Shown here: one piece after another, positions 2 to 13,003 of the stretch
How positions within the stretch are numbered: position 1 is the first letter of the stretch
How the letters are laid out: each line of letters opens with the position of its first letter
Origin: Mollicutes bacterium Phil14
GTDB lineage: Bacteria; Bacillota_I; Bacilli_A; ML615J-28; CAG-698
Assembly (NCBI GenBank): GCA_001940985.1
Contig: MSHB01000017.1
Location: 1-64,000, forward strand
Length of the DNA stretch: 64,000 nt
Direction: 5' to 3'
Position numbers and translations under genes: made by a program
Notes under the pieces: generated by a model
The model's database searches: none
The model's input: only the letters and a program-made list of their open reading frames with translations
Told to the model about the DNA's origin: nothing

Positions 2-1255
2 AATATAATAAGAGTAGGGAATAAAGAGTATGGATATAACAATCGAGGATTAATAGAAAGTTATACAAAAGGAGAAGAAAGATATAAATATTATTATAAT
101 TATCTAGGACAAAGAAATAAAAAAGAAAGATATAAAAAAGAAGAAAACGAATGGAAACTAAAAGAAAGTAAAGAGTATTACCTAGATGAAGGAATAATAA
201 TAGAAGAAAGCAGTGGGGAAGAAAAGCTAAAGTACTACTATGATAAAGATGGAGTAAGTGGAATAAGATATAAAGGAAAAAATTATGAATTAATAAGAGA
301 TATTTTAAATAATGTAAGTGAAGTAGTATTAAATGGAAAAGTAATAGGGGAATATCTATATGATGGATGGGGAAATGTAGAAGTAAGATTAACGCAAGGT
401 ATAACAAAAGAAGAGCAATATGTAATAGAAAACAATCCATATAGATATAGAGGATATTACTATGATAAAGAGACTGGACTGTTCATGATGGGACAAAGAT
501 ACTATAGTCCTGAGCTATGTAGGTTTATTCAACCAGCTGATGTATCAACATTAAACCCACGCTCTATCAATGGGTTAAATCTATATAGTTTTTCGAACAA
601 CAATCCAATAGGTATTGCATATAGCAGTTTTGGTGCTACTTTTGGGACTAGTGGTGGAATGATTGGTTCTACAAGAGGAACAATCGGTAATATTGTTGGA
701 AGCGGAAGTGTAGGTGGAGGATCAAAAATTAGTGGCTTTGGTTCATTAGGAGGATCTAGTTTTAGTAGTATAAATTGGCCTAAAGCGAATTCTGTTGCAA
801 TGACACACTATACTACTTCGTTGATTAAAAATCCATTTATATCTTGGATGTTGGGAAATATTTCTTATACAAAAACTGTTCAATTAAATTCTGCTGAGAC
901 TTTCTATTCATTTAGCAATATTGGTAATGATGGTTATAGTGCTGGCGTTGGTTTTAATTTTGGTAATTGGTATGGAGGAAGTGTATATGTTAGCAGTGAT
1001 ATCGGTTTTGGTTCTAGTTGGCAACTAACACCTTGGTTGACCGGAAGTTCTGGATGGAGTCTTGAAAACGGAATTTCAATTAGTGGAGGGGTAATTATTG
1101 GTGATACAACTCATGAAATTACTGTTTCAATAGGTAATGGAGCATTATTAGGGTATGCAGCTTGTGCTGGAATTGCTGCTATACCGGTGCCTGGCGCAAG
1201 GGCAGTTGCGGCCACGGCTGCATGCATTATATTTATTATTGATTTGTTTAATTAA
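2..1255 (+). CDS. Rhs/YD-repeat polymorphic toxin, 3' part (5' end outside window) with variable Gly/Ser-rich C-terminal tip
   Basis: Frame is open from the window edge into ORF 485..1255. Rhs core signature NPYRYRGYYYDKETGLFMMGQRYYSPELCRF..., then a divergent C-terminal domain. Confidence 0.85.
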   Translation, partial: NIIRVGNKEYGYNNRGLIESYTKGEERYKYYYNYLGQRNKKERYKKEENEWKLKESKEYYLDEGIIIEESSGEEKLKYYYDKDGVSGIRYKGKNYELIRDILNNVSEVVLNGKVIGEYLYDGWGNVEVRLTQGITKEEQYVIENNPYRYRGYYYDKETGLFMMGQRYYSPELCRFIQPADVSTLNPRSINGLNLYSFSNNNPIGIAYSSFGATFGTSGGMIGSTRGTIGNIVGSGSVGGGSKISGFGSLGGSSFSSINWPKANSVAMTHYTTSLIKNPFISWMLGNISYTKTVQLNSAETFYSFSNIGNDGYSAGVGFNFGNWYGGSVYVSSDIGFGSSWQLTPWLTGSSGWSLENGISISGGVIIGDTTHEITVSIGNGALLGYAACAGIAAIPVPGARAVAATAACIIFIIDLFN

Positions 1256-1269
1256 TTTGGAGGAAAATT

Positions 1270-1704
1270 ATGTATAATAAAATAATTGATGGAATGAAAA
1301 AAGAAGGGAAAAGTTTTCTTAGACTTGCTATATTTTCTACCATTTTATTTGTACTTACATTTATATATATGTATGTTAATGAGAAGAATTTTCAGGATAA
1401 AGTTGTATTATCAATGTTGATGGTATACTCAATGTTTTCTTTGTTTGGCTTATATGGATGGCTATATTCTATTAAATATAGAGTTGAGTTTGATAATGAA
1501 AGAGTTTATTTAAAAACTTTATTTAGAAAAATCGAACTTAATATATGTGATGTTAAAAAATATACATGTAATAGATATAGAAAATCGGTATTCTATCAAT
1601 TCAATTTATTCATAAATGACAAAAAAATTTTGATTAATACAAGATATAAAGATGAATTCGAAAAAGTATTAAATGATTATAAAATCGAACAAATAATTAA
1701 ATAA
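1270..1704 (+). CDS. Small membrane protein, candidate immunity protein for the Rhs tip
   Basis: ORF starts 14 nt after the Rhs stop; two predicted TM segments in the N-terminal half; position is typical for an immunity gene. Confidence 0.5.
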   Translation: MYNKIIDGMKKEGKSFLRLAIFSTILFVLTFIYMYVNEKNFQDKVVLSMLMVYSMFSLFGLYGWLYSIKYRVEFDNERVYLKTLFRKIELNICDVKKYTCNRYRKSVFYQFNLFINDKKILINTRYKDEFEKVLNDYKIEQIIK

Positions 1705-1789
1705 TTGTAAACAGGATAAGACGTGCTTCACTTTGCATCACATAGTCTTGCACGTCACCTGTTTTAACTGGGATACCCAGCTTAAAATT
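1704..1789 (+). other. Structured intergenic element, copy A (upstream of serine recombinase)
   Basis: AAACAGG (1709-1715) pairs with CCTGTTT (1758-1764); GACGTGC (1720-1726) pairs with GCACGTC (1750-1756); CTGGG-ATA-CCCAG hairpin (1768-1780). Near-identical flanks recur at 13069-13150. Confidence 0.7.
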
Positions 1790-1811
1790 GTAATGGTAAG
1801 GAGGCGATGAT

Positions 1812-3203
1812 ATGATAGAATCTATTTTATATAAGACTGCTATATATTGTAGACTTTCTTTAGATGATGGATCTTTAGGAGAATCAGGTAGTATTCAAAC
1901 ACAAAAGATGATGCTAGAAAAATATTGTTGTGATAATAACTTTACTATTAAAGAAGTATATATTGATGATGGTTATTCAGGATTAAATTTTGATAGACCA
2001 GCATTTAAAAGATTAATCGCAGATATTGAATCAGGAAAGATTAGTTTAGTAATAACTAAAGACTTATCTAGGTTAGGTAGAGATTACTTACAAACTGGAT
2101 ACTATACAGAACAATACTTTCCTTTACACAATGTAAGATATATTGCAGTTAACGATAGTGTAGATACATTAATAGATAACAATGATATCGCACCATTTAA
2201 AAATATCTTAAATGATATGTATGCTAAAGATTTATCTAGAAAAGTTAAATCAGCCAAAAGACAAAGAGCGTTAAATGGATTATTTATATCTGCTCAAACA
2301 CCTTATGGGTATATAAAGGATTCTACAAATAAAAATCATTTAATAGTAGATGAAGATGTAAGACATGTTATTGAATTAATATTTAACATGTGTGTTAATG
2401 GAAAAGGAGCACCCACTATTGCTAAAGTTTTAGAAGAAAAAGGAATATTAAATCCTGCGGCTTATAAAACATTAAAAGGTTCAACTAGATTTGCAAAACT
2501 TCAAGGAACTAACCATTATAAATGGAAAGCAGTAACTGTAAGAAAGATATTAACTGATATGGTTTACTGTGGACATATGGAAAATGGTAAATATAAAGTT
2601 GAAAACTACAAAACTAAAAGAAGAGTTAAAGTTCCTGATAGTGAACATATAGTAGTTAAAAATACTCATGAAGCTATTATTAGTGAAGAAACATTTGAAA
2701 CAGTACAAACAGTTTTAAGTGCTAGACACTATCCAGCACATCATGAACATGAAAACTTATTTAAATCAATCTTATTTTGTGAATGTGGTAAAAGAATGGC
2801 TATTGCTCATAAAGTAGGAAACAATAAGAAAGATACTTTTTATAAGTGTGCAAATCACGAGAATAATCCTCATGAATGTCCTAGATCAAATATTATTCAA
2901 TATAGCCAAATAAAAAGTATTATTGAAAAAGAAATATTTGAATTAATGAATAAACTTAAACATAATGAAAAAGCATTCGAAACATTTGTTAGTAAACTAA
3001 AGAAAGAAGAATCTAAGGATAAATCTTCTGAAATTAAGAAAACAGAATCTAGAATTAATACCTTAATCAAAATTGCTTCAAAATTATATGAAGATTATGC
3101 AAGTGATTTAATTAATGAAAGAACTTATAAAGAATTGTTACTTAGAAATAAGCAAGAACAAGACTTATTAGAACAAAAGTTACAATCATTAAAGAATGTG
3201 TAA
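1812..3203 (+). CDS. Serine recombinase (resolvase N-terminal domain, recombinase domain, zinc ribbon)
   Basis: TAIYCRLSLDD..ESGSIQTQ, ITKDLSRLGRDYLQTGYYTE, CECGKRM...CANHE zinc ribbon. The same frame continues past an in-frame TAA (3201-3203) to 3404. Confidence 0.9.
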   Translation: MIESILYKTAIYCRLSLDDGSLGESGSIQTQKMMLEKYCCDNNFTIKEVYIDDGYSGLNFDRPAFKRLIADIESGKISLVITKDLSRLGRDYLQTGYYTEQYFPLHNVRYIAVNDSVDTLIDNNDIAPFKNILNDMYAKDLSRKVKSAKRQRALNGLFISAQTPYGYIKDSTNKNHLIVDEDVRHVIELIFNMCVNGKGAPTIAKVLEEKGILNPAAYKTLKGSTRFAKLQGTNHYKWKAVTVRKILTDMVYCGHMENGKYKVENYKTKRRVKVPDSEHIVVKNTHEAIISEETFETVQTVLSARHYPAHHEHENLFKSILFCECGKRMAIAHKVGNNKKDTFYKCANHENNPHECPRSNIIQYSQIKSIIEKEIFELMNKLKHNEKAFETFVSKLKKEESKDKSSEIKKTESRINTLIKIASKLYEDYASDLINERTYKELLLRNKQEQDLLEQKLQSLKNV

Positions 3204-3404
3204 GAAAATATAACTTATAAATTAATGAAACTAGACCAATTAAAGCATAAATTTAACAAATTCATAGATAATGTTGAACTAACTACAGATATGGTTAATT
3301 CATTAATAGAACGAATAGAATTGAGTTATTATACAAAAACAGAAGATGGTAAGAAACATAGACGAATGATCATTAAATACAAATTTATTGATGATTCATT
3401 GTAA
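3204..3404 (+). pseudogene. C-terminal remainder of the serine recombinase after a premature in-frame TAA
   Basis: Same frame reads ENITYKLMKLDQLKHKFNKFIDNVELTTDMVNSLIERIELSYYTKTEDGKKHRRMIIKYKFIDDSL*, a typical recombinase C-terminal tail. Confidence 0.7.
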
Positions 3405-3465
3405 TTATTATAAAATATAGGTGACCTAGATGTTTAATACTTAGGACACCATAGAATATGACGTC

Positions 3466-3662
3466 GAAAGTGGACTATATTATTGTATTACTAGATATTA
3501 TTCACCAGAGTTATGTATATTTACAAGTATAGATAGTATAGAGTATTTAGACTATGAAAGTATCAATGGATTAGATTTATATTGTTATTGTTTGAATAAT
3601 CCGATTTCTTATTCCGATCCATCAGGTAATTTACCTCAATGGGCTGAATGGTTGATTGGTGG
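3466..3662 (+). repeat. Rhs core direct repeat, copy 1
   Basis: About 197 bp nearly identical to 5019-5215 (GAAAGTGGA...TATATTATTGTATTACTAGATATTATTCACCAGAG...GAATGGTTGATTGGTGG). Confidence 0.85.
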
Positions 3663-4227
3663 AGCACTGGTTGTAGGAGCGATTGCTTTAACGATTGCTA
3701 CTGCAGGAGTTGGAGGCGCTTTAACAACCGCTTTAGGAGGAAGTTTACTAGCTACTATTGGAAGTGGAGTAGTAGTTGGGGCAGCGGTAGGAGCTGTTAG
3801 TGGAATGATGATTAATGCTGGAACGCAATTAATAACAAATGGTGCCGAAAACTTCTCTTGGAGTGAATTTGGTAAAAGTGCGTGGACTGGTGCTATTGCT
3901 GGTGGAATTGCAGGAGGAGTATTTGCTTGTATTCAATATGGATTATCTGCGGGGAAAATTGCAAATAGTGTTTCAGGATTTAATAAAGCACAAACTAGAT
4001 TAAATAATGTACTTAAACCATTAGGAAATGTTAAAAATTTAGCTAATGCTCCTTTTAGTGGAGCAAACATTGCTAGAACTGTGGGACAAGTTGCGGGTAA
4101 CTATAATACCGCATATTCCGCATATATTTTGGCAAAAGGGACTAAGGCTATTGTAAAGGTTGGCATAGGAGTAGCATATTTCTTACTTGAAAATTTAACT
4201 AGTGATTTAATTGGATTGGCTTTTTAG
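3466..4227 (+). pseudogene. Orphan Rhs tip cassette (tip 2): Rhs core fragment plus C-terminal toxin-like domain, no standard start at the core
   Basis: Core ESGLYYCITRYYSPELCIFTSIDSIEYLDYESINGLDLYCYCLNNPISYSDPSGN followed by a hydrophobic/Gly-rich pre-toxin region; only a TTG inside the core (3592). Confidence 0.75.
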
Positions 4228-4236
4228 AAAGGAATT

Positions 4237-4551
4237 ATGGTAAAAATGGAAATAGAATTTAAAAAAGCAATATTTACTTCGAACCAAATAATAATTAAAA
4301 AGAAAAAACAAAATATTGTTATTCCATTAGCTAAAGTGGACAAACTTCTTTATGCAAAATTTTCTATTAAAAATTATTTATCTTTAGGGTTTGGTGATTG
4401 GAGAACTACAGGAGCATTATATATTTATTTAAATGAAAAAATTAATAATAAAAACATGTATTGTTTCTTTATTAAATATGATAATCTTGTACAAATTCCA
4501 GAGAATATTTATAAAAAAATTAAATTTTACGTTCCAGGAGAAACATGGTAA
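4237..4551 (+). CDS. Small protein, candidate immunity for tip 2
   Basis: ORF immediately downstream of the tip 2 stop. Confidence 0.45.
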   Translation: MVKMEIEFKKAIFTSNQIIIKKKKQNIVIPLAKVDKLLYAKFSIKNYLSLGFGDWRTTGALYIYLNEKINNKNMYCFFIKYDNLVQIPENIYKKIKFYVPGETW

Positions 4552-4587
4552 AAAATATTAAATAATAATTAGCACAAACTTGTAAGA

Positions 4588-4622
4588 GTGTAACTATCTT
4601 AATAGGTAGTTACACTTTTTTT
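4588..4622 (+). terminator. Rho-independent terminator after tip 2 cassette
   Basis: GTGTAACTA...TAGTTACAC followed by a T-run. Confidence 0.75.
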
Positions 4623-4860
4623 AAATAATAAAACTTTTAAAGTTTAACAATATTTTATAATAAATCATTACTATGATATAATTATATCGTAAAAATGATT
4701 GTTGAGTTTAAAATTATAAGAAATTTATTATAAGTGTAATATTTTAAGAAAGTAATAATCTAATAAACATATCAAGTTTTTGAATTTACTAAATATGAGT
4801 TCTATTAAATATTTGGTAATACCATATTTTTAAAACTAATGAAGCGTTAGTCTTAACATT

Positions 4861-4889
4861 TTGACAAAGATATATAATGATGATATAAT
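4861..4889 (+). promoter_or_regulatory. Consensus sigma-A-type promoter upstream of orphan tip 3
   Basis: TTGACA (4861-4866), 17-nt spacer, TATAAT (4884-4889). Confidence 0.55.
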
Positions 4890-4910
4890 TAAAGATAATA
4901 GATAAAATAT

Positions 4911-5792
4911 GATGGATGGGGAAATGTAGAAGTAAGATTAACGCAAGGTATAACAAAAGAAGATCAATATGTATTAGAAAACAATCCATATCGATATAGA
5001 GGATATTACTATGATAAAGAAAGTGGATTATATTATTGTATTACTAGATATTATTCACCAGAGTTATGTATATTTACAAGTATAGATAGTATAGAGTATT
5101 TAGACTGTGAAAGTATTAATGGATTAGATTTATATTGTTATTGTTTGAATAATCCGATTTCTTATAGTGACCCATCAGGTAATCTTCCACAATGGGCTGA
5201 ATGGTTGATTGGTGGTGCAGTAATTGTAGGATTAGGAATAGCGACAGTCTTTACTGGAGGAGCGGCAGGAGTAATTCTCGGTGCAGCTTTCTATGGTGCC
5301 GTTACAAGTGCTATTGGAGGAGCTTTAGTCGGAGGTGTTATCGGGGGAATAACAGGAGGTTGGAAAGGCGCTTTAGACGGTGCCGCTAGTGGTTTTATGT
5401 GGGGCGCAATATCAGGAGCCATAATAGGTACCTTGACTTCTGGAATTAATATTGCTACAGGTAGCGTTCAAATTGTTGGCAGTGCTCAAAGAACTGGATC
5501 TTTATTTCATCAATTTGCTAGTAATGTTCAAGCTGGCAAAATGTCTCTTGCAGTAGGAAGATATAGTGAAATTCATTTGAATAGAAGTAAAGGATTAGGT
5601 ATTAAAGGATTTAGACCTGATGTAAGTGGTGTTACTAAAAATGGATTAAGGGTTGTTGAAGTTGTTAGTAGTAGTCAAACCTATGCTAGCCAAGTCGCTA
5701 AAATAGGAAGAATGATGGGACAATATTCTCATATTTCTAATGGACTAACTTTAGATGCTTTACGATTTATTATGAACTGGTTTGTATTCTAG
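4911..5792 (+). pseudogene. Orphan Rhs tip cassette (tip 3) with REase-like C-terminal toxin domain
   Basis: Core DGWGNVEVRLTQGITKEDQYVLENNPYRYRGYYYDKESGLYYC... duplicates 362-471. Tip ends GLGIKGFRPDVSGVTKNGLRVVEVVSSSQT, resembling PD-(D/E)XK-type Rhs tips. No ATG/GTG/TTG in frame before 5145. Confidence 0.75.
5019..5215 (+). repeat. Rhs core direct repeat, copy 2
   Basis: Nearly identical to 3466-3662. Confidence 0.85.
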
Positions 5793-5830
5793 TAACGTTA
5801 ATTTGTTTAATTATTAAATTGGAGGATAGT

Positions 5831-6412
5831 ATGTTAATTCCTAAATATTTAGAAGAAATATCTGAGGTTATAGATACTTCTAAAAATATAGAAGTGGCTA
5901 AAATTAAATGTAAATGTAGCCATGGTCATTTTTTAGTTTATGAATTTTTTGAGACTGATAATGTAAATATTAAATCAGGATTTAATGAAATAATACGTGA
6001 AAATGATAAATTGTATTTAGTCAAACGCAATTTCTTTGGCAAAATTGTAAAAAAGATTGAATGTGGAAATATGTTTGAAAGAAAACAACGAAGAATAATA
6101 AAGGTGATATGTGAAAAGTGCGGTAAAGAATATACTCTGTTTGATAATTATAAACACGGATATGATGCAGTAATTGCTCAACAAGAAAGCTATACTTTGA
6201 AAGAGAAAATAACTTTTGATTTTAAACAAGTATATCCACAACCAATTGAAGTTTATGTAAAAATTTACCAGGATATTTCCTATGATCAATTTAAAGATGA
6301 GTTTAAAAGTATAGATTATAATGGCTACTTGAATTCATTTTGCAACATTGATATATATGGCATAAATTCAAAATCAAGAAAAATTAAAATTTGTTCAGAG
6401 GAAACAGCATAA
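5831..6412 (+). CDS. Candidate immunity protein for tip 3 (Cys-containing)
   Basis: ORF 5819..6412, likely ATG at 5831, downstream of tip 3; contains CKCSHGH and CEKCGKEY. Confidence 0.45.
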   Translation: MLIPKYLEEISEVIDTSKNIEVAKIKCKCSHGHFLVYEFFETDNVNIKSGFNEIIRENDKLYLVKRNFFGKIVKKIECGNMFERKQRRIIKVICEKCGKEYTLFDNYKHGYDAVIAQQESYTLKEKITFDFKQVYPQPIEVYVKIYQDISYDQFKDEFKSIDYNGYLNSFCNIDIYGINSKSRKIKICSEETA

Positions 6413-6483
6413 AATATTATATGAATTAATATAAACTTGTATGAGTGCAGCTATCAGTTCAATAGTTACACTTGTTTTTAAAA

Positions 6484-6811
6484 ATGATACTCGTTTGATA
6501 GAAGTGCTAAAATATGGTATAATGATCTATATAAATTATGGAGAATATTTAAAACAGATCAAAAAATTATGTAAAGATATGCTTCTGATAATATTAACAG
6601 GTACATTTGTGAGTTTTGCGACATATTTTTTATAAAGAAATTATAAAATGTATGTAACAAGATATTTTATAGAGACTATGAATACAAGAAAGACTAAAAC
6701 AATAATGAAATTAAACTTTCTTTTTTGCTTAATTAAAATATGTATTAATGATAATATTTATTGATAAAAAGTAAAAGAAGTATGTAGTAGCATGTTGATG
6801 GAGTTTATCAT
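6484..6811 (+). pseudogene. Decayed copy of CBASS promoter, CIRCE-like operator and 5' end of the 2TM-NUDIX effector
   Basis: Matches 7907-8328 with an internal deletion. IKKLCKDMLLIILTGTFVSFATYFL vs MKKLFKDIFWIIIIGTFVIMATYYL, with the start codon ATG changed to ATC at 6558; later blocks ATTGATAAAAAGTAAAAGA and TGTTGATGGAGTTTATCAT also match. Confidence 0.8.
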
Positions 6812-7552
6812 AGCTATGATAAAAAAAGTGGACCATATTATTGTAGTTCTAGATATTATTCACCAGAGTTATGTATATTTACAAGTATAGATAGTATTAA
6901 GTATTTAGAACCAAGTTCTATTAATGGATTGAATTTATATTGCTATTGTGCTAATAACCCTATCATGAATATCGATCCTAGTGGGCATGCATGGTATAAC
7001 CCATTAACATGGGATTGGGGCGAAATCGCTAAAGGTGTTGGACTAGTTATTACAGGGGTTGCTGCGATAGCTGTTGGTGTGGTCACTCTTCCATATGGAG
7101 GATGGATTGCTGCGGTTGCAGGAGTTACAATTCTTGCTGGTGGTGGAACTGCATTGTTTGGATTATCGGATATAGGTGAAGGAATAACAGATTACAATGT
7201 TATTCAAGAGGCAGTCTTTATGGGAAATGAAGATGCATATAATTTAGCAGAAGATATATTTATGTATACAGCTATTGTGGGTACAGCAATTTGTGGTGTT
7301 TACGGCGCTACTCATACAACAATCTCTGCTAATAGAAGTACACCACAATTTAACAAAAAACCACATTCTGCTTTATATAATAAGCAATCAAAAGTATTAA
7401 CTTATTATGGAAAGAATAAACAAATGAAGTATTCTGTTGGTTTCTTCGAAAGAGGGCATCAATGGAACCATTGGCATACAGAAATGAAGCATAGTAAACC
7501 TATTAATAATTTCTTAAGATTTGTTTGGGAAATGGCAAAGAAAGGATTCTAA
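6812..7552 (+). pseudogene. Orphan Rhs tip cassette (tip 4) with Gly-rich pre-toxin region and His-rich C-terminal domain
   Basis: YDKKSGPYYCSSRYYSPELCIFTSIDSIKYLEPSSINGLNLYCYCANNPIMNIDPSGHAW; tip end FERGHQWNHWHTEMKHSK. Confidence 0.75.
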
Positions 7553-7553
7553 T

Positions 7554-7835
7554 ATGAACTGGAATGAATTTATTGAAAGATATTTAATTAATCACGAAGA
7601 GTTTAGATTTAAATATAAGAATTATATTATTGATTTGCTTTATTCTAGTGGTGGGACAAAATATGCTTATTATATTAGTGAGTATATTGAAAATGAAACT
7701 ATTTTTAGTAAAATAAAAAATAGAAATAAATATTTGAAATTTGATGAATTCGATTCTCCACAAGAATTATTAGAAAAATTTAGTATTAACAATAATAGTT
7801 TCCAAGAAATTTGGAACGAACTAGAATGGAAATAA
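7554..7835 (+). CDS. Candidate immunity protein for tip 4
   Basis: ORF 7521..7835, likely ATG at 7554 just after the tip 4 stop. Confidence 0.5.
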   Translation: MNWNEFIERYLINHEEFRFKYKNYIIDLLYSSGGTKYAYYISEYIENETIFSKIKNRNKYLKFDEFDSPQELLEKFSINNNSFQEIWNELEWK

Positions 7836-7854: not shown

Positions 7855-7896
7855 AGGAGTGTAACTATCTTAACAGATGGGTGCACTCCTTTTTTA
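7855..7896 (+). terminator. Rho-independent terminator between tip 4 cassette and CBASS operon
   Basis: AGGAGTGTAACTATC...GATGGGTGCACTCCT followed by T6. Confidence 0.75.
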
Positions 7897-7906
7897 ATTT
7901 TTAAAG

Positions 7907-7933
7907 TTGACACTCGTTTGACAAGAGTGCTAA
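7907..7933 (+). promoter_or_regulatory. CIRCE-like inverted repeat (HrcA-type operator)
   Basis: TTGACACTC-GTTTGACAA-GAGTGCTAA versus consensus TTAGCACTC-N9-GAGTGCTAA: 16 of 18 half-site bases match with exact N9 spacing. Confidence 0.75.
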
Positions 7934-7946
7934 AATGCGATATAAT
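7918..7946 (+). promoter_or_regulatory. Consensus sigma-A-type promoter of the CBASS operon
   Basis: TTGACA (7918-7923), 17-nt spacer, TATAAT (7941-7946); -35 lies inside the CIRCE-like repeat. Confidence 0.75.
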
Positions 7947-7986: not shown

Positions 7987-8823
7987 ATGAAAAAATTGTT
8001 TAAAGACATATTTTGGATAATAATAATAGGCACATTTGTAATCATGGCAACATATTATTTATTAAAAATTTTTGATAAAGAATTTAAAACAGCAATTTAT
8101 ATAGAGATTTCGATTGCAATAATAATTGCTTTTATCAGAATGTTTTATAAAAAAATCATAGATTTATTCAACAAGATATTTTATAAAGGTTATGAATATA
8201 AGAAAGAATACGATGATAAGGAGATTAGACTCTCTTTTGCTTACCTAATTAGAATACGTATTAATAATAAATATTTATTGATAAAAAGCAAAAGAGATAA
8301 GTATCAACCTGTTGGCGGAGTTTATCATATCGACGACAAAGCAAAAATTAATGATAAATTTGGTTTTTATCGAGATTCTAATCCAGGGGATGCAAATGAT
8401 ATAAGAGGGAATATTTTAGGGAGAAATATTAAAAAATTTATTAAATGGTTTAATAAAAAAACTGAAAGAGAAATTACTCCAGATAGAGAGTTTAGAGAAG
8501 AATTGATTGCTTCTGAGTTGTTACCAAGTGAAATTTTTAGTGAGTTAAACTTCTCTTATTTCGATACTTTTTATAAAGGTGTTAATCATGATAATTTTTA
8601 TAATACTTTACAATTGTTAAGGCTCGATATTTTTGATTTTATACCTACAAAAGAACAAGAGCGATACTTAGCAAACTTAGATTTTAAAAATAAAAAAATA
8701 AAAGCAAATTTATATTTAGCTACAAATGATGAAATTAAAAGATTAGGTGTTAGTGAAGCAAATGATAAGCAAATTTTTGGAACTCAAACACCATTTATTT
8801 TGGAGGGATTTAAAAATGAATGA
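7987..8823 (+). CDS. CBASS effector: two-TM N-terminus plus SMODS-associated NUDIX-like domain
   Basis: Two N-terminal hydrophobic helices; YLLIKSKRDKYQPVGGVYH...TPDREFREELIASELLPSE resembles a NUDIX-box region; directly precedes the CD-NTase. Confidence 0.75.
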   Translation: MKKLFKDIFWIIIIGTFVIMATYYLLKIFDKEFKTAIYIEISIAIIIAFIRMFYKKIIDLFNKIFYKGYEYKKEYDDKEIRLSFAYLIRIRINNKYLLIKSKRDKYQPVGGVYHIDDKAKINDKFGFYRDSNPGDANDIRGNILGRNIKKFIKWFNKKTEREITPDREFREELIASELLPSEIFSELNFSYFDTFYKGVNHDNFYNTLQLLRLDIFDFIPTKEQERYLANLDFKNKKIKANLYLATNDEIKRLGVSEANDKQIFGTQTPFILEGFKNE

Positions 8824-9931
8824 AATTAATAAGTACTTAAATATAATAGGTTCAAAACTACAATTATCAGAAGAAAAGTTTGAAGAATTAAATAAAAACT
8901 ATAAAGCTATTTCATCTTATATAGCAAATAATCATGCTTTGGCTGGTGATGAAGAATATAGTATTTATCAACAAGGATCTTTTGCAATTGATACAGCTAT
9001 AAAACCTTTAAAAGGTGATGAATTTGATGTAGATGTTGTAATCGAGTTTGATATTAAAAAAGGTGACGTAGGACCAATTGAATTCTATAATCAATTATTT
9101 AAAGCCTTTAAAGAAGGTAGGTATGGCAATATTGTTGAAGAGTATAGAAATAATATAAGAATAAATTATGATAACAATTATCATTTTGATATTATGCCTG
9201 CAATTCCTTTGGCTTATAATTCACAATTATTAAATGTTCCAGATAGAAAAAAATGTGAGTGGGTTATTAGATCTCCAAAATTATATAGAAGCTGGTTTTT
9301 AGAACAAGCAAATAAAATTTCTAAATATAATAAAGGAATCAAAGTGTCTGTAAATGATAATAATCAGTTTGTATTAGAAAGAGATATTGCTCCGCTTGCG
9401 AAACCTAAAGATTACGAGCTTAAACCAACGTTAAATCGTGTCGTTCAATTAATTAAAAGGGCAAGAGATGTTTATTTCTATCATAAAGAAGAATATGTAC
9501 CTCAAAGCATTGTGTTGACAACTTTAGCTGCACAGTTTTATCAAGGTGAACAATCAATAGTAGACGCTTTATTAAATATAGCAAAAAAAATGTTTGAACT
9601 AGGAAACAATAATCCTAGATTCGATGTATATAATCCCGCTTGCCCGAACAAACAAGAGAATTTTACTCAAAAATGGAAATATAAAATAAAATTTTATGAT
9701 AATTATTTTGCATTTACAAAGTGGTTTTTAAATGGAATTAAGGGGTTACTAAACAATTCTACGGCCAAAGATTCATTGATTAATTTATTTGGGGAATCAT
9801 TGTTAAATAATGTTTATGAGGAAACTAAATATGATTATTTTTGGAGGGAATTAGAATCTAACATTCACAAAGGGAATATTTTTCCCAATGCTCCTGTAAA
9901 AGTAGACAAAAAGGAGAGAGGAAATGCTTAG
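8816..9931 (+). CDS. CD-NTase (SMODS nucleotidyltransferase), CBASS second-messenger synthase
   Basis: YQQGSFAIDTAIKPLKGDEFDVDVVIEFD (GS...DxD motif) and FDIMPAIPL; start overlaps the effector stop (ATGAATGA). Confidence 0.9.
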   Translation: MNEINKYLNIIGSKLQLSEEKFEELNKNYKAISSYIANNHALAGDEEYSIYQQGSFAIDTAIKPLKGDEFDVDVVIEFDIKKGDVGPIEFYNQLFKAFKEGRYGNIVEEYRNNIRINYDNNYHFDIMPAIPLAYNSQLLNVPDRKKCEWVIRSPKLYRSWFLEQANKISKYNKGIKVSVNDNNQFVLERDIAPLAKPKDYELKPTLNRVVQLIKRARDVYFYHKEEYVPQSIVLTTLAAQFYQGEQSIVDALLNIAKKMFELGNNNPRFDVYNPACPNKQENFTQKWKYKIKFYDNYFAFTKWFLNGIKGLLNNSTAKDSLINLFGESLLNNVYEETKYDYFWRELESNIHKGNIFPNAPVKVDKKERGNA

Positions 9932-11534
9932 TAATAGGTTATTATATGAATTATTTTGCATAGAAGAATTTAAAAAAATAGAAGAGTATTTTTATTATGA
10001 AATTATCAATGCTGAACCACTATCTATTTTGTTTTCTATAAATGTGCATAATTTTACATATGAATTTATTGCTGAATACCCTAAGTATTTTCCACATCAG
10101 CCTATAATTATTTACAGGAAAACTGATTTTAAAACTGTCCATTGCTATAAAAATGGTGCTATGTGCTTAAAATGGGGGAACGACAATTGGAATAGTGATT
10201 TGACAATAGTGGATCTAATTAAAAATCTATATGATTTGTTATTTGTAGAGAATCCGCTTGGTAGTGAACATCAACAATCAGAATCGGGCGATTCATTTTC
10301 ACTAGGACAAGAGATTAGATATGTAGATAATATTTGCTTGGTACTAGGAAAAGATACATTAAGTTATATTAATGATTATGGAAATATGAAATTATCTTAT
10401 AATAAAACTGATGAAAACAAAAAAATTTATTTTATTAAAAGTATAGATGATAAAAAAATAATTAAATCTAAAGCATTAAAAAATGAAAAAGAAGTTAAAT
10501 ATTTTAGAACAAAAATTTTATGGAAAGAATTAATATGTTTGAAACCTAGAGAATTATTTAATCACTTAAATATAGGAGAAATAATAAAAAAAGATTTCAT
10601 TATATTTACAATTGATAATTACGCCATTTTCCTTTCTAAACAAGGTAAAAAGGTTGATTATATTAAAATTATTGTGAGTGAGTTTGAAACAGATAAAAGA
10701 TTAAAAATTGACAAAAATATTTTAAATAAAAAAATCTTAATTCTTGGATTGGGTTCAATTGGTTCTAGAGTATTAATGGACTTGTCTAGAACTGGGTTTA
10801 ACAATTTTATATTAGTTGATAATGATATTATGCTTCCGTATAATACAGTTAGACATGAATTAACAGAAAAACATATTGGCGAATATAAAGTTAATGCATT
10901 AAAAAGAATGATTTCTGATGAAATAAATCCGAATATTAATATTGAAGTTTCAACATTAAATATGTTGGGCCAAGAATCATCAACGTCTACTGAAAGATTC
11001 TTAAAAATGTGTGAGAGTGCCGATTTAATTATTGATTGTACAGCTAATGACAATTTATTATTGTTGGTTGATAATGTTTTAAAAGATAAACAAATTCCTT
11101 TGATAAGTGGTACTGTTATTCCGGGTGGACTAGGAAATATTGTGTTGATTAGAAAAAAAGAAGATGTTTTTTCTATGGAGAAAATATTATCTGCTTATTA
11201 TTATTTTAAATCCACAAAAAATATGTTTGCAGAAGAATCTCATGATTATGAAGCAACTATTGAAGAAACACCTTATGTAGCTACTATGTCAGATTGTTCA
11301 ATATTGAGTGGATTGATTGGAAAAAATGCTATATTAATATTAAACAATGATAACGATATATATAATATAAATGTATTTTCAACAAGTTCTTATGGTGATT
11401 TGAAAGAAATGTATAATACATATAGATTAAATGTTGTAGATATACCTGTAGAAGAAGTAGAATTTGATGAAGAAATAATAAAAAAAGGTGAAAAAATATA
11501 TGAAGATTATCATTCAAGAAGATATAGCAAATAA
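9924..11534 (+). CDS. cap2: CBASS Cap2: E2-like plus ThiF/E1-like fusion
   Basis: E2-like N-terminus with candidate catalytic Cys (HCYKNGAMCLKWGNDNW); E1 Rossmann ILILGLGSIGSRVLMDLSRTGFNNFILVDND; E1 Cys candidate SDCSILSGLIG. Confidence 0.9.
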   Translation: MLSNRLLYELFCIEEFKKIEEYFYYEIINAEPLSILFSINVHNFTYEFIAEYPKYFPHQPIIIYRKTDFKTVHCYKNGAMCLKWGNDNWNSDLTIVDLIKNLYDLLFVENPLGSEHQQSESGDSFSLGQEIRYVDNICLVLGKDTLSYINDYGNMKLSYNKTDENKKIYFIKSIDDKKIIKSKALKNEKEVKYFRTKILWKELICLKPRELFNHLNIGEIIKKDFIIFTIDNYAIFLSKQGKKVDYIKIIVSEFETDKRLKIDKNILNKKILILGLGSIGSRVLMDLSRTGFNNFILVDNDIMLPYNTVRHELTEKHIGEYKVNALKRMISDEINPNINIEVSTLNMLGQESSTSTERFLKMCESADLIIDCTANDNLLLLVDNVLKDKQIPLISGTVIPGGLGNIVLIRKKEDVFSMEKILSAYYYFKSTKNMFAEESHDYEATIEETPYVATMSDCSILSGLIGKNAILILNNDNDIYNINVFSTSSYGDLKEMYNTYRLNVVDIPVEEVEFDEEIIKKGEKIYEDYHSRRYSK

Positions 11535-11958
11535 ACTTTATAAAATATTAAAAAAAGCAGGAAGTAAAGAAATAAAAGGAGCTTGTTTTGCTAAATTTAT
11601 AGAAAATGGAACATATGAAATAGAAGAAATTTATGTAAGTCCTATAATTGGAAATAGTGTATTTTCAAATTTGATTATAGATTTAAAATATAAAAAGTTT
11701 GAGAATAAATATTATAAAAAACATTTATTTGATTATGAAAATCATAACTATATTGGGGATTGGCACTCACATCCGGTGTTTGATTGTAGACCATCTAATT
11801 ATGATATAAATGAACTTGAAGAAGAATTGGATAAATCTAATGCAAATTTTCTTATTCAATTAATTGTAAAAATAGAAAACAATTTTTTAGTTGGTAGATG
11901 CTATTACTTGTCAAAGTCGAATAAAAAATATAGTGAGTGTGAATTGGAACTAAAGTAA
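11500..11958 (+). CDS. cap3: CBASS Cap3: JAB/JAMM isopeptidase
   Basis: JAMM motif GDWHSHPVFDCRPSNYD; overlaps the 3' end of cap2. Confidence 0.9.
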   Translation: MKIIIQEDIANKLYKILKKAGSKEIKGACFAKFIENGTYEIEEIYVSPIIGNSVFSNLIIDLKYKKFENKYYKKHLFDYENHNYIGDWHSHPVFDCRPSNYDINELEEELDKSNANFLIQLIVKIENNFLVGRCYYLSKSNKKYSECELELK

Positions 11959-11996: not shown

Positions 11997-12440
11997 TTAA
12001 CATCCATATTTATTTCTAATTCTAGTTAATGCGTCTTTTATATATTGTGAAGATATTTTATATTGATCGAATACAATGTCAAATCCGTGTTCATCATTAC
12101 AAACAAAATTCCAATAGTCTTTACCAATTAATAATTCATCTTTAGAAAAGAATCTTTCTACATTCGCTTGATGCCATGAGTTATTTTCTCCAAATTTGTT
12201 ATATGCTGTAGCAAAGTATATTAATATTTTTTGATCTGATGGAGTAATATTTTTTAACATAAAATATTCTTTTATTAAAGCTGATTTTTCGCTTTTTGCT
12301 TTTTTATTATCTAAATCTCCACCAGCTTTAAGTTCTACTAAATAATGAGTTCCAGTATTTTAATCATAAAACCAGTTATCGCATACATGTTGAGTTTTAA
12401 AGCTTGTTGTATCTCTAGGTTGAACAACAAAAATTAGAGA
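11997..12440 (-). pseudogene. TdeIII-like type II restriction endonuclease, 5'-truncated with an in-frame TAA
   Basis: Minus-strand reading SLIFVVQPRDTTSFKTQHVCDNWFYD*NTGTHYLVELKAGGDLDNKKAKSEKSALIKEYFMLKNI...WHQANVERFFSKDELLIGKDYWNFV; ELK plus GGDLDNKKAKSEK recalls TdeIII-family enzymes. Confidence 0.6.
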
Positions 12441-13003
12441 ACTATTGTCTTAAATCTAAACCTAACTATATAGGAATAATTATTTGTTTGTATACAGGAA
12501 TAAGACTTGGTGAATTACTTGCTTTAACTTGGGATGATATTGATTTTGATAAAAGATTATTAAGAGTTAACAAGACTGTTTATACCATTAGTAAAAATGG
12601 TAAGAACGAAGCATATATTGATAAACCTAAAACTAAACAATCTAATAGAATAATACCTTTACCTAAGCAATTAATAATTTTGTTAAAGAAAAACAAAAAA
12701 GAATCTATTTCAAACTACATCATCGCCACAAAAACTGGAGGTATAGTTCAAAATAGATCCTATCAAAAAGCATTTAAAAGTCTTTTAAGAAAATGTGACA
12801 TTTCCTATAAAAACTTTCATTCATTAAGACACACATTTGCTACTCGTGCATTAGAACTTGGAATGGATGTTAAAATATTATCTGAAATATTAGGTCATAA
12901 AAATTCGGTTGTAACATTAAATCGATATTCACATTCTTTACCAGAACATAAAGCAGAATTTGTGAATAAGGTTGGAAAGTTATTAGATACCTCCAATTTA
13001 TAG
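12434..13003 (+). pseudogene. Tyrosine recombinase/phage integrase, N-terminally truncated
   Basis: YTGIRLGELLALTWDDID, HSLRHTFATRALELGMDVKILSEILGHKNSVVTLNRYSH (R..HxxR..H..Y); SAM-like N-terminal domain absent. Confidence 0.85.

Follow-up and report, generated by a model that had tools for sequence, protein, structure and literature searches.

A CIRCE-like element over the promoter of a type II CBASS operon in Mollicutes bacterium Phil14, a candidate and probably weak HrcA operator

The window analysed here is a 64,000-nucleotide stretch of the Mollicutes bacterium Phil14 genome (contig MSHB01000017.1, positions 1 to 64,000, forward strand). It carries a complete four-gene type II CBASS operon, in which a 2TM-NUDIX effector, a CD-NTase, a Cap2 E1-E2 protein and a Cap3 JAB peptidase are encoded in this order by overlapping genes (Table 1). 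The effector directly follows the promoter discussed below, as the initial annotation had proposed, and its assignment was confirmed by PF18167 and PADLOC profile matches. All four genes have open reading frames and retain their visible active-site motifs, so that they appear intact. Known type II CBASS whose effector is of the 2TM-NUDIX (Cap16) type carry the same genes in one operon. The gene set is not unusual; the candidate novelty is the promoter.

The operon is flanked by Rhs-type cassettes upstream and by restriction-enzyme and integrase fragments downstream. Directly 3′ of CBASS (11997-13003), a partial TdeIII-type restriction endonuclease, encoded on the minus strand, stands beside a truncated tyrosine integrase; both are remains of a mobile defence island. 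The upstream array of Rhs-type C-terminal toxin cassettes (358-7835) contains three copies of a 222-nt repeat (3457, 5010, and 6815), each followed by a different tip with small ORFs downstream, and the cassettes have a common terminator repeat (4566 and 7837). The upstream toxin cassette ends in an intrinsic terminator, which insulates the CBASS promoter from it. Neither the ORFs nor a domain search of the neighbours revealed a regulator gene or domain beside the operon.

Table 1. Features of the CBASS locus and of its decayed second copy (window coordinates)
Feature	Position	Strand	Remarks
Decayed CIRCE-like promoter copy, ATGATACTC-N9-AAGTGCTAA; TTGATA-N17-TATAAT	6484..6523	+	
Pseudogene remnant of effector 5′ part, second copy	6555..6826	+	Several stops; protein 47% identical over 75 residues, corresponding to effector residues 45-119
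Intrinsic terminator of upstream toxin cassette	7855..7896	+	RNA fold −19.9 kcal/mol, z = −4.4, then T6
CIRCE-like operator, TTGACACTC-N9-GAGTGCTAA	7907..7933	+	Right arm perfect; left arm A3G and G4A
Weaker overlapping promoter-like match, TTGACA-N18-TAAAAT (11/12)	7907..7936	+	Consensus match only
Perfect sigma-A-type promoter, TTGACA-N17-TATAAT	7918..7946	+	−35 (7918-7923) inside CIRCE spacer; −10 at 7941-7946
CBASS effector, two predicted transmembrane helices and SMODS-associated NUDIX domain (Cap16 type)	7987..8823	+	PF18167 E=5.8e-49; PADLOC 2TM effector E=8.7e-47
CD-NTase (SMODS/DncV-like)	8816..9931	+	GS...DVD and later D motifs; PF18144 E=5.6e-18; PADLOC cyclase E=6e-80
Cap2-type E1-E2 protein	9924..11534	+	ThiF E=2.3e-24; PADLOC E1-E2 E=6.4e-71
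Cap3-type JAB/JAMM peptidase (HSHP...SNYD)	11503..11958	+	Prok-JAB E=8.7e-6; PADLOC JAB E=1.7e-26

The full element reads TTGACACTC GTTTGACAA GAGTGCTAA (arm, spacer, arm). It had been described in the initial annotation as a CIRCE-like inverted repeat overlapping the −35 of a perfect promoter, and both points held. Against the CIRCE reference TTAGCACTC-N9-GAGTGCTAA, 16 of the 18 arm positions are matched (2 mismatches) with exact N9 spacing; the −35 hexamer falls within the spacer, and the right arm sits in the −35/−10 interval. The left arm itself spells TTGACA, the −35 of the weaker overlapping promoter match. No other site in the 64-kb window has three or fewer mismatches to CIRCE, and 100 dinucleotide shuffles of the window produced none.

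Both the hrcA search and the genome-wide CIRCE scan suggested at the outset gave positive results. A full-length hrcA is present in the genome, and pattern searches returned a canonical regulon: besides CBASS, non-coding CIRCE sites with three or fewer mismatches are found at hrcA-grpE-dnaK-dnaJ (two sites), htpG, and clpB. A further three-mismatch site (C2:78620) lies inside the ruvB coding sequence and was rejected as chance. The htpG gene shares one 121-kb contig with CBASS, and its operator (TTAGCACTC TACTTGACA AAGTGCTAA, then AAAGTAGTATAAT) is arranged like the CBASS promoter; a −35 inside the CIRCE spacer, the geometry looked for under HrcA control and seen at CBASS, is found there and at the first hrcA site. 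Compared with 74 upstream regions in the examined DNA of this genome, the CBASS promoter was closest to that of htpG (score, 60; next, 43). Similarity of the 5′ untranslated region alone between CBASS and htpG was not above background, so capture of the promoter from htpG is not demonstrated. The pattern ACTC-N9-RAGTGCTAA occurs in the examined DNA of this genome only at CBASS, its decayed copy, htpG, and clpB.

In three sister species, CIRCE sites precede clpB, htpG, and hrcA, and in two of them also a TetR-family gene, so the regulon is not confined to chaperones. In these two (L084:1501-2181 and L086:210-890), a conserved CIRCE (TTAGCACTAAATAGGTTAGAGTGCTAA) lies just upstream of the promoter of the TetR-family gene, which may belong to the HrcA regulon without being a chaperone gene.

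The expected number of sites depends on how they are scored. In a third-order Markov simulation, ∼0.034 sites with two or fewer mismatches were expected per 1.69-Mb genome (based on 2 matches in 99 million positions); for sites in promoter register, i.e., overlapping a promoter −35, an expectation of ∼2e-4 per genome follows if one takes about 1000 promoters and nine registers. Each of the 43 genomes of the order carries 1 to 5 CIRCE sites (two or fewer mismatches), and the reversed-pattern control gave 0 sites in the same 43 genomes. By position weight matrix (PWM), the CBASS site scored 17.6 bits, genuine sites scored 23 to 34, and ∼0.22 sites of CBASS quality were expected per genome. The low score arises because A3 and G4 are near-invariant among relatives, with A3 varying in 4 and G4 in 0 of 206 HrcA half-sites. 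A3G is tolerated in the htpG sites of two sister species, and G4A is without precedent in the 206 half-sites. The half-site core TAGCA is thus kept in the right arm and lost from the left, where G4A falls at an invariant position and HrcA affinity may consequently be low. The CIRCE that function in Mycoplasma gallisepticum have no more than two mutations (PMC5138195), which puts the CBASS site, with its two mismatches, at the limit. A search of 2.9 million viral contigs for the exact variant TTGACACTC-N9-GAGTGCTAA gave a single match; it lies on a phage-like contig, within a GC-rich hairpin, and was dismissed as chance.

The CBASS promoter and the start of the effector are present a second time, in broken form, at about 6481-6826, within the array of Rhs-type toxin cassettes and fused to an Rhs-type repeat; it seems that the array recombined by way of an earlier copy of CBASS. 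The decayed promoter retains ACTC-N9-AAGTGCTAA, and its left arm (ATGATACTC) is poorer than that of the CBASS site. Since both copies have GA at arm positions 3 and 4, the left-arm deviation is probably older than the duplication.

The site is not conserved before orthologous operons. CIRCE with four or fewer mismatches was found at 0 of 53 CBASS-related loci elsewhere (347 kb), a set drawn from effector relatives, CD-NTase and NUDIX matches in class and phylum samples, and plasmid relatives, in which a few loci overlap or share a genome. The element therefore belongs to this locus and not to the CBASS family, and the lack of conservation that the initial annotation had named as refuting HrcA control is largely what was seen. 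Close relatives of this CBASS are rare: 24 effector relatives were found in a scan of 85,462 species genomes, the remaining 42 genomes of the order gave no effector match, and searches returned neither CBASS relatives in viral contigs nor DNA relatives in plasmids. The closest ortholog (L016; 41% identity) has all four CBASS genes in order and no CIRCE upstream of them, though its genome has CIRCE sites. It is followed by an ORF (L016:10308-10826) that resembles a reverse transcriptase and is possibly another defence gene. In an Erysipelotrichaceae MAG, a CIRCE-like site with five mismatches (ATAGCACATAGTATATGAAAGTGCTAG; L017:4678-4704) and a downstream TATAAT precede a CBASS with a NUDIX effector; this site was judged too weak to count as a conserved CIRCE.

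A chance occurrence of the motif is unlikely. That an ordinary strong promoter merely came to look like CIRCE draws some force from the PWM expectation and from the possibility that this window was picked out of many, but it sits poorly with the promoter-register expectation, the empty reversed control, and the recurrence of the pattern, in the examined DNA, only in heat-shock promoters and the decayed copy; we regard it as improbable. The inverted repeat CACTC-N9-GAGTG could also be the operator of a different repressor, e.g., one arriving with the mobile island, as characterised CBASS operons often have a promoter-overlapping palindrome bound by CapW (PMC9122588). This reading is very improbable, given arms that match CIRCE so closely, a neighbourhood free of regulator genes, and the failure to find a second CACTC-N9-GAGTG site in the examined DNA of the genome.

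The promoter may instead be a relic, captured or copied from an htpG-like heat-shock gene, whose CIRCE has decayed so that HrcA no longer binds and a strong promoter drives CBASS constitutively. A left arm deviating at an invariant position, a deviation common to both copies with the older one decayed further, and the strong overall likeness to the htpG promoter would all fit such a history. The perfect right arm and exact spacing nonetheless exceed what a neutral relic must keep, and the 5′ untranslated region is not specially htpG-like; we consider a relic unlikely, if less so than chance.

We favour the reading that CBASS is driven by a heat-shock-type promoter with a CIRCE-like operator of the host HrcA, from which stress would release repression and raise CBASS, and give it a probability of roughly one half. 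In its favour are the match with exact spacing, the regulon in the same genome, the htpG-like promoter, and the missing adjacent regulator; against it stand G4A, a PWM score below that of genuine sites, the restriction of the site to this locus, and the poorer arm of the decayed copy. The odds that HrcA still binds the CBASS site appear about even. As judged from these features, the element is probably a real, probably weak, locus-specific candidate HrcA operator that would make CBASS stress-inducible.

Under HrcA control, the repressor, with the perfect right half-site as its anchor, would at rest partly occlude the −35 and spacer, hindering RNA polymerase sterically by analogy with characterised CIRCE promoters, and CBASS expression would be low. 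HrcA of Campylobacter jejuni occupies a compact stretch of the core promoter (PMC7464140). Heat or protein-folding stress would inactivate HrcA, freeing this operator at the same time as the hrcA-dnaK, htpG, and clpB operators, and CBASS would become more abundant; since the site seems weaker than those of the chaperone genes, repression would be partial. In Acholeplasma laidlawii, HrcA promoters rise about 100-fold on heat (PMC5138195). What was observed here is the sequence, the promoter layout, CBASS genes that look intact, and HrcA together with its canonical regulon; HrcA binding, repression, stress induction, and any benefit in phage infection are inferred.

The initial annotation had suggested de-repression by protein-folding stress, for example when phage overload chaperones. 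The first part fits the presence of hrcA, the regulon, and the shared promoter architecture; overload of GroE by phage is doubtful. GroEL (PF00118), which 32 of the order's 43 genomes have, was not found in this genome (assembly 93% complete); a GroE-overload trigger is therefore unlikely, and the usual GroE-dependent switch may be absent. Direct inactivation of HrcA by heat or proteotoxic stress is a more plausible trigger, and direct thermosensing, as shown for HrcA of C. jejuni (PMC8533110), would by analogy be the more likely route here. Carrier-state cultures of C. jejuni repress the HrcA regulon, perhaps because the phage brings its own chaperones (PMC4534711), so the direction of a phage effect is uncertain.

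The element shares its arms, N9 spacing, and core-promoter overlap with the HrcA-CIRCE operators of hrcA-dnaK, groE, clpB, and htpG. Those control chaperones, whereas the CBASS site, with its A3G/G4A left arm, precedes an anti-phage operon and is not conserved among the operon's relatives. CapW, CapH/CapP, and CapK/CapS offer a parallel in the palindromic operator over the CBASS promoter (shown for CapW) and in an expected low expression until stress. The genes for these CBASS repressors lie next to their operons, and CapK/CapS reacts to DNA damage (PMC9122588 and PMC13373217); here, by contrast, the candidate repressor is the unlinked heat-shock regulator of the host and the cue would be proteotoxic. 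In the literature searched, we found no paper that brings HrcA or CIRCE together with either CBASS or phage defence, in agreement with the initial annotation, to which no described HrcA-controlled CBASS was known.

A fuller proposal is that this mobile-island CBASS, which has no regulator of its own, has joined the heat-shock regulon of its host: HrcA would repress it through a low-affinity CIRCE, and proteotoxic stress, including that caused by phage infection, would raise the level of the suicide system. This proposal is tentative and falls a little short of even odds. If true, it would represent an abortive-infection system cued by the protein-folding state of the host via a global chaperone repressor. 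Acquisition of a heat-shock promoter would then be a simple path by which a horizontally moving defence operon gains regulation.
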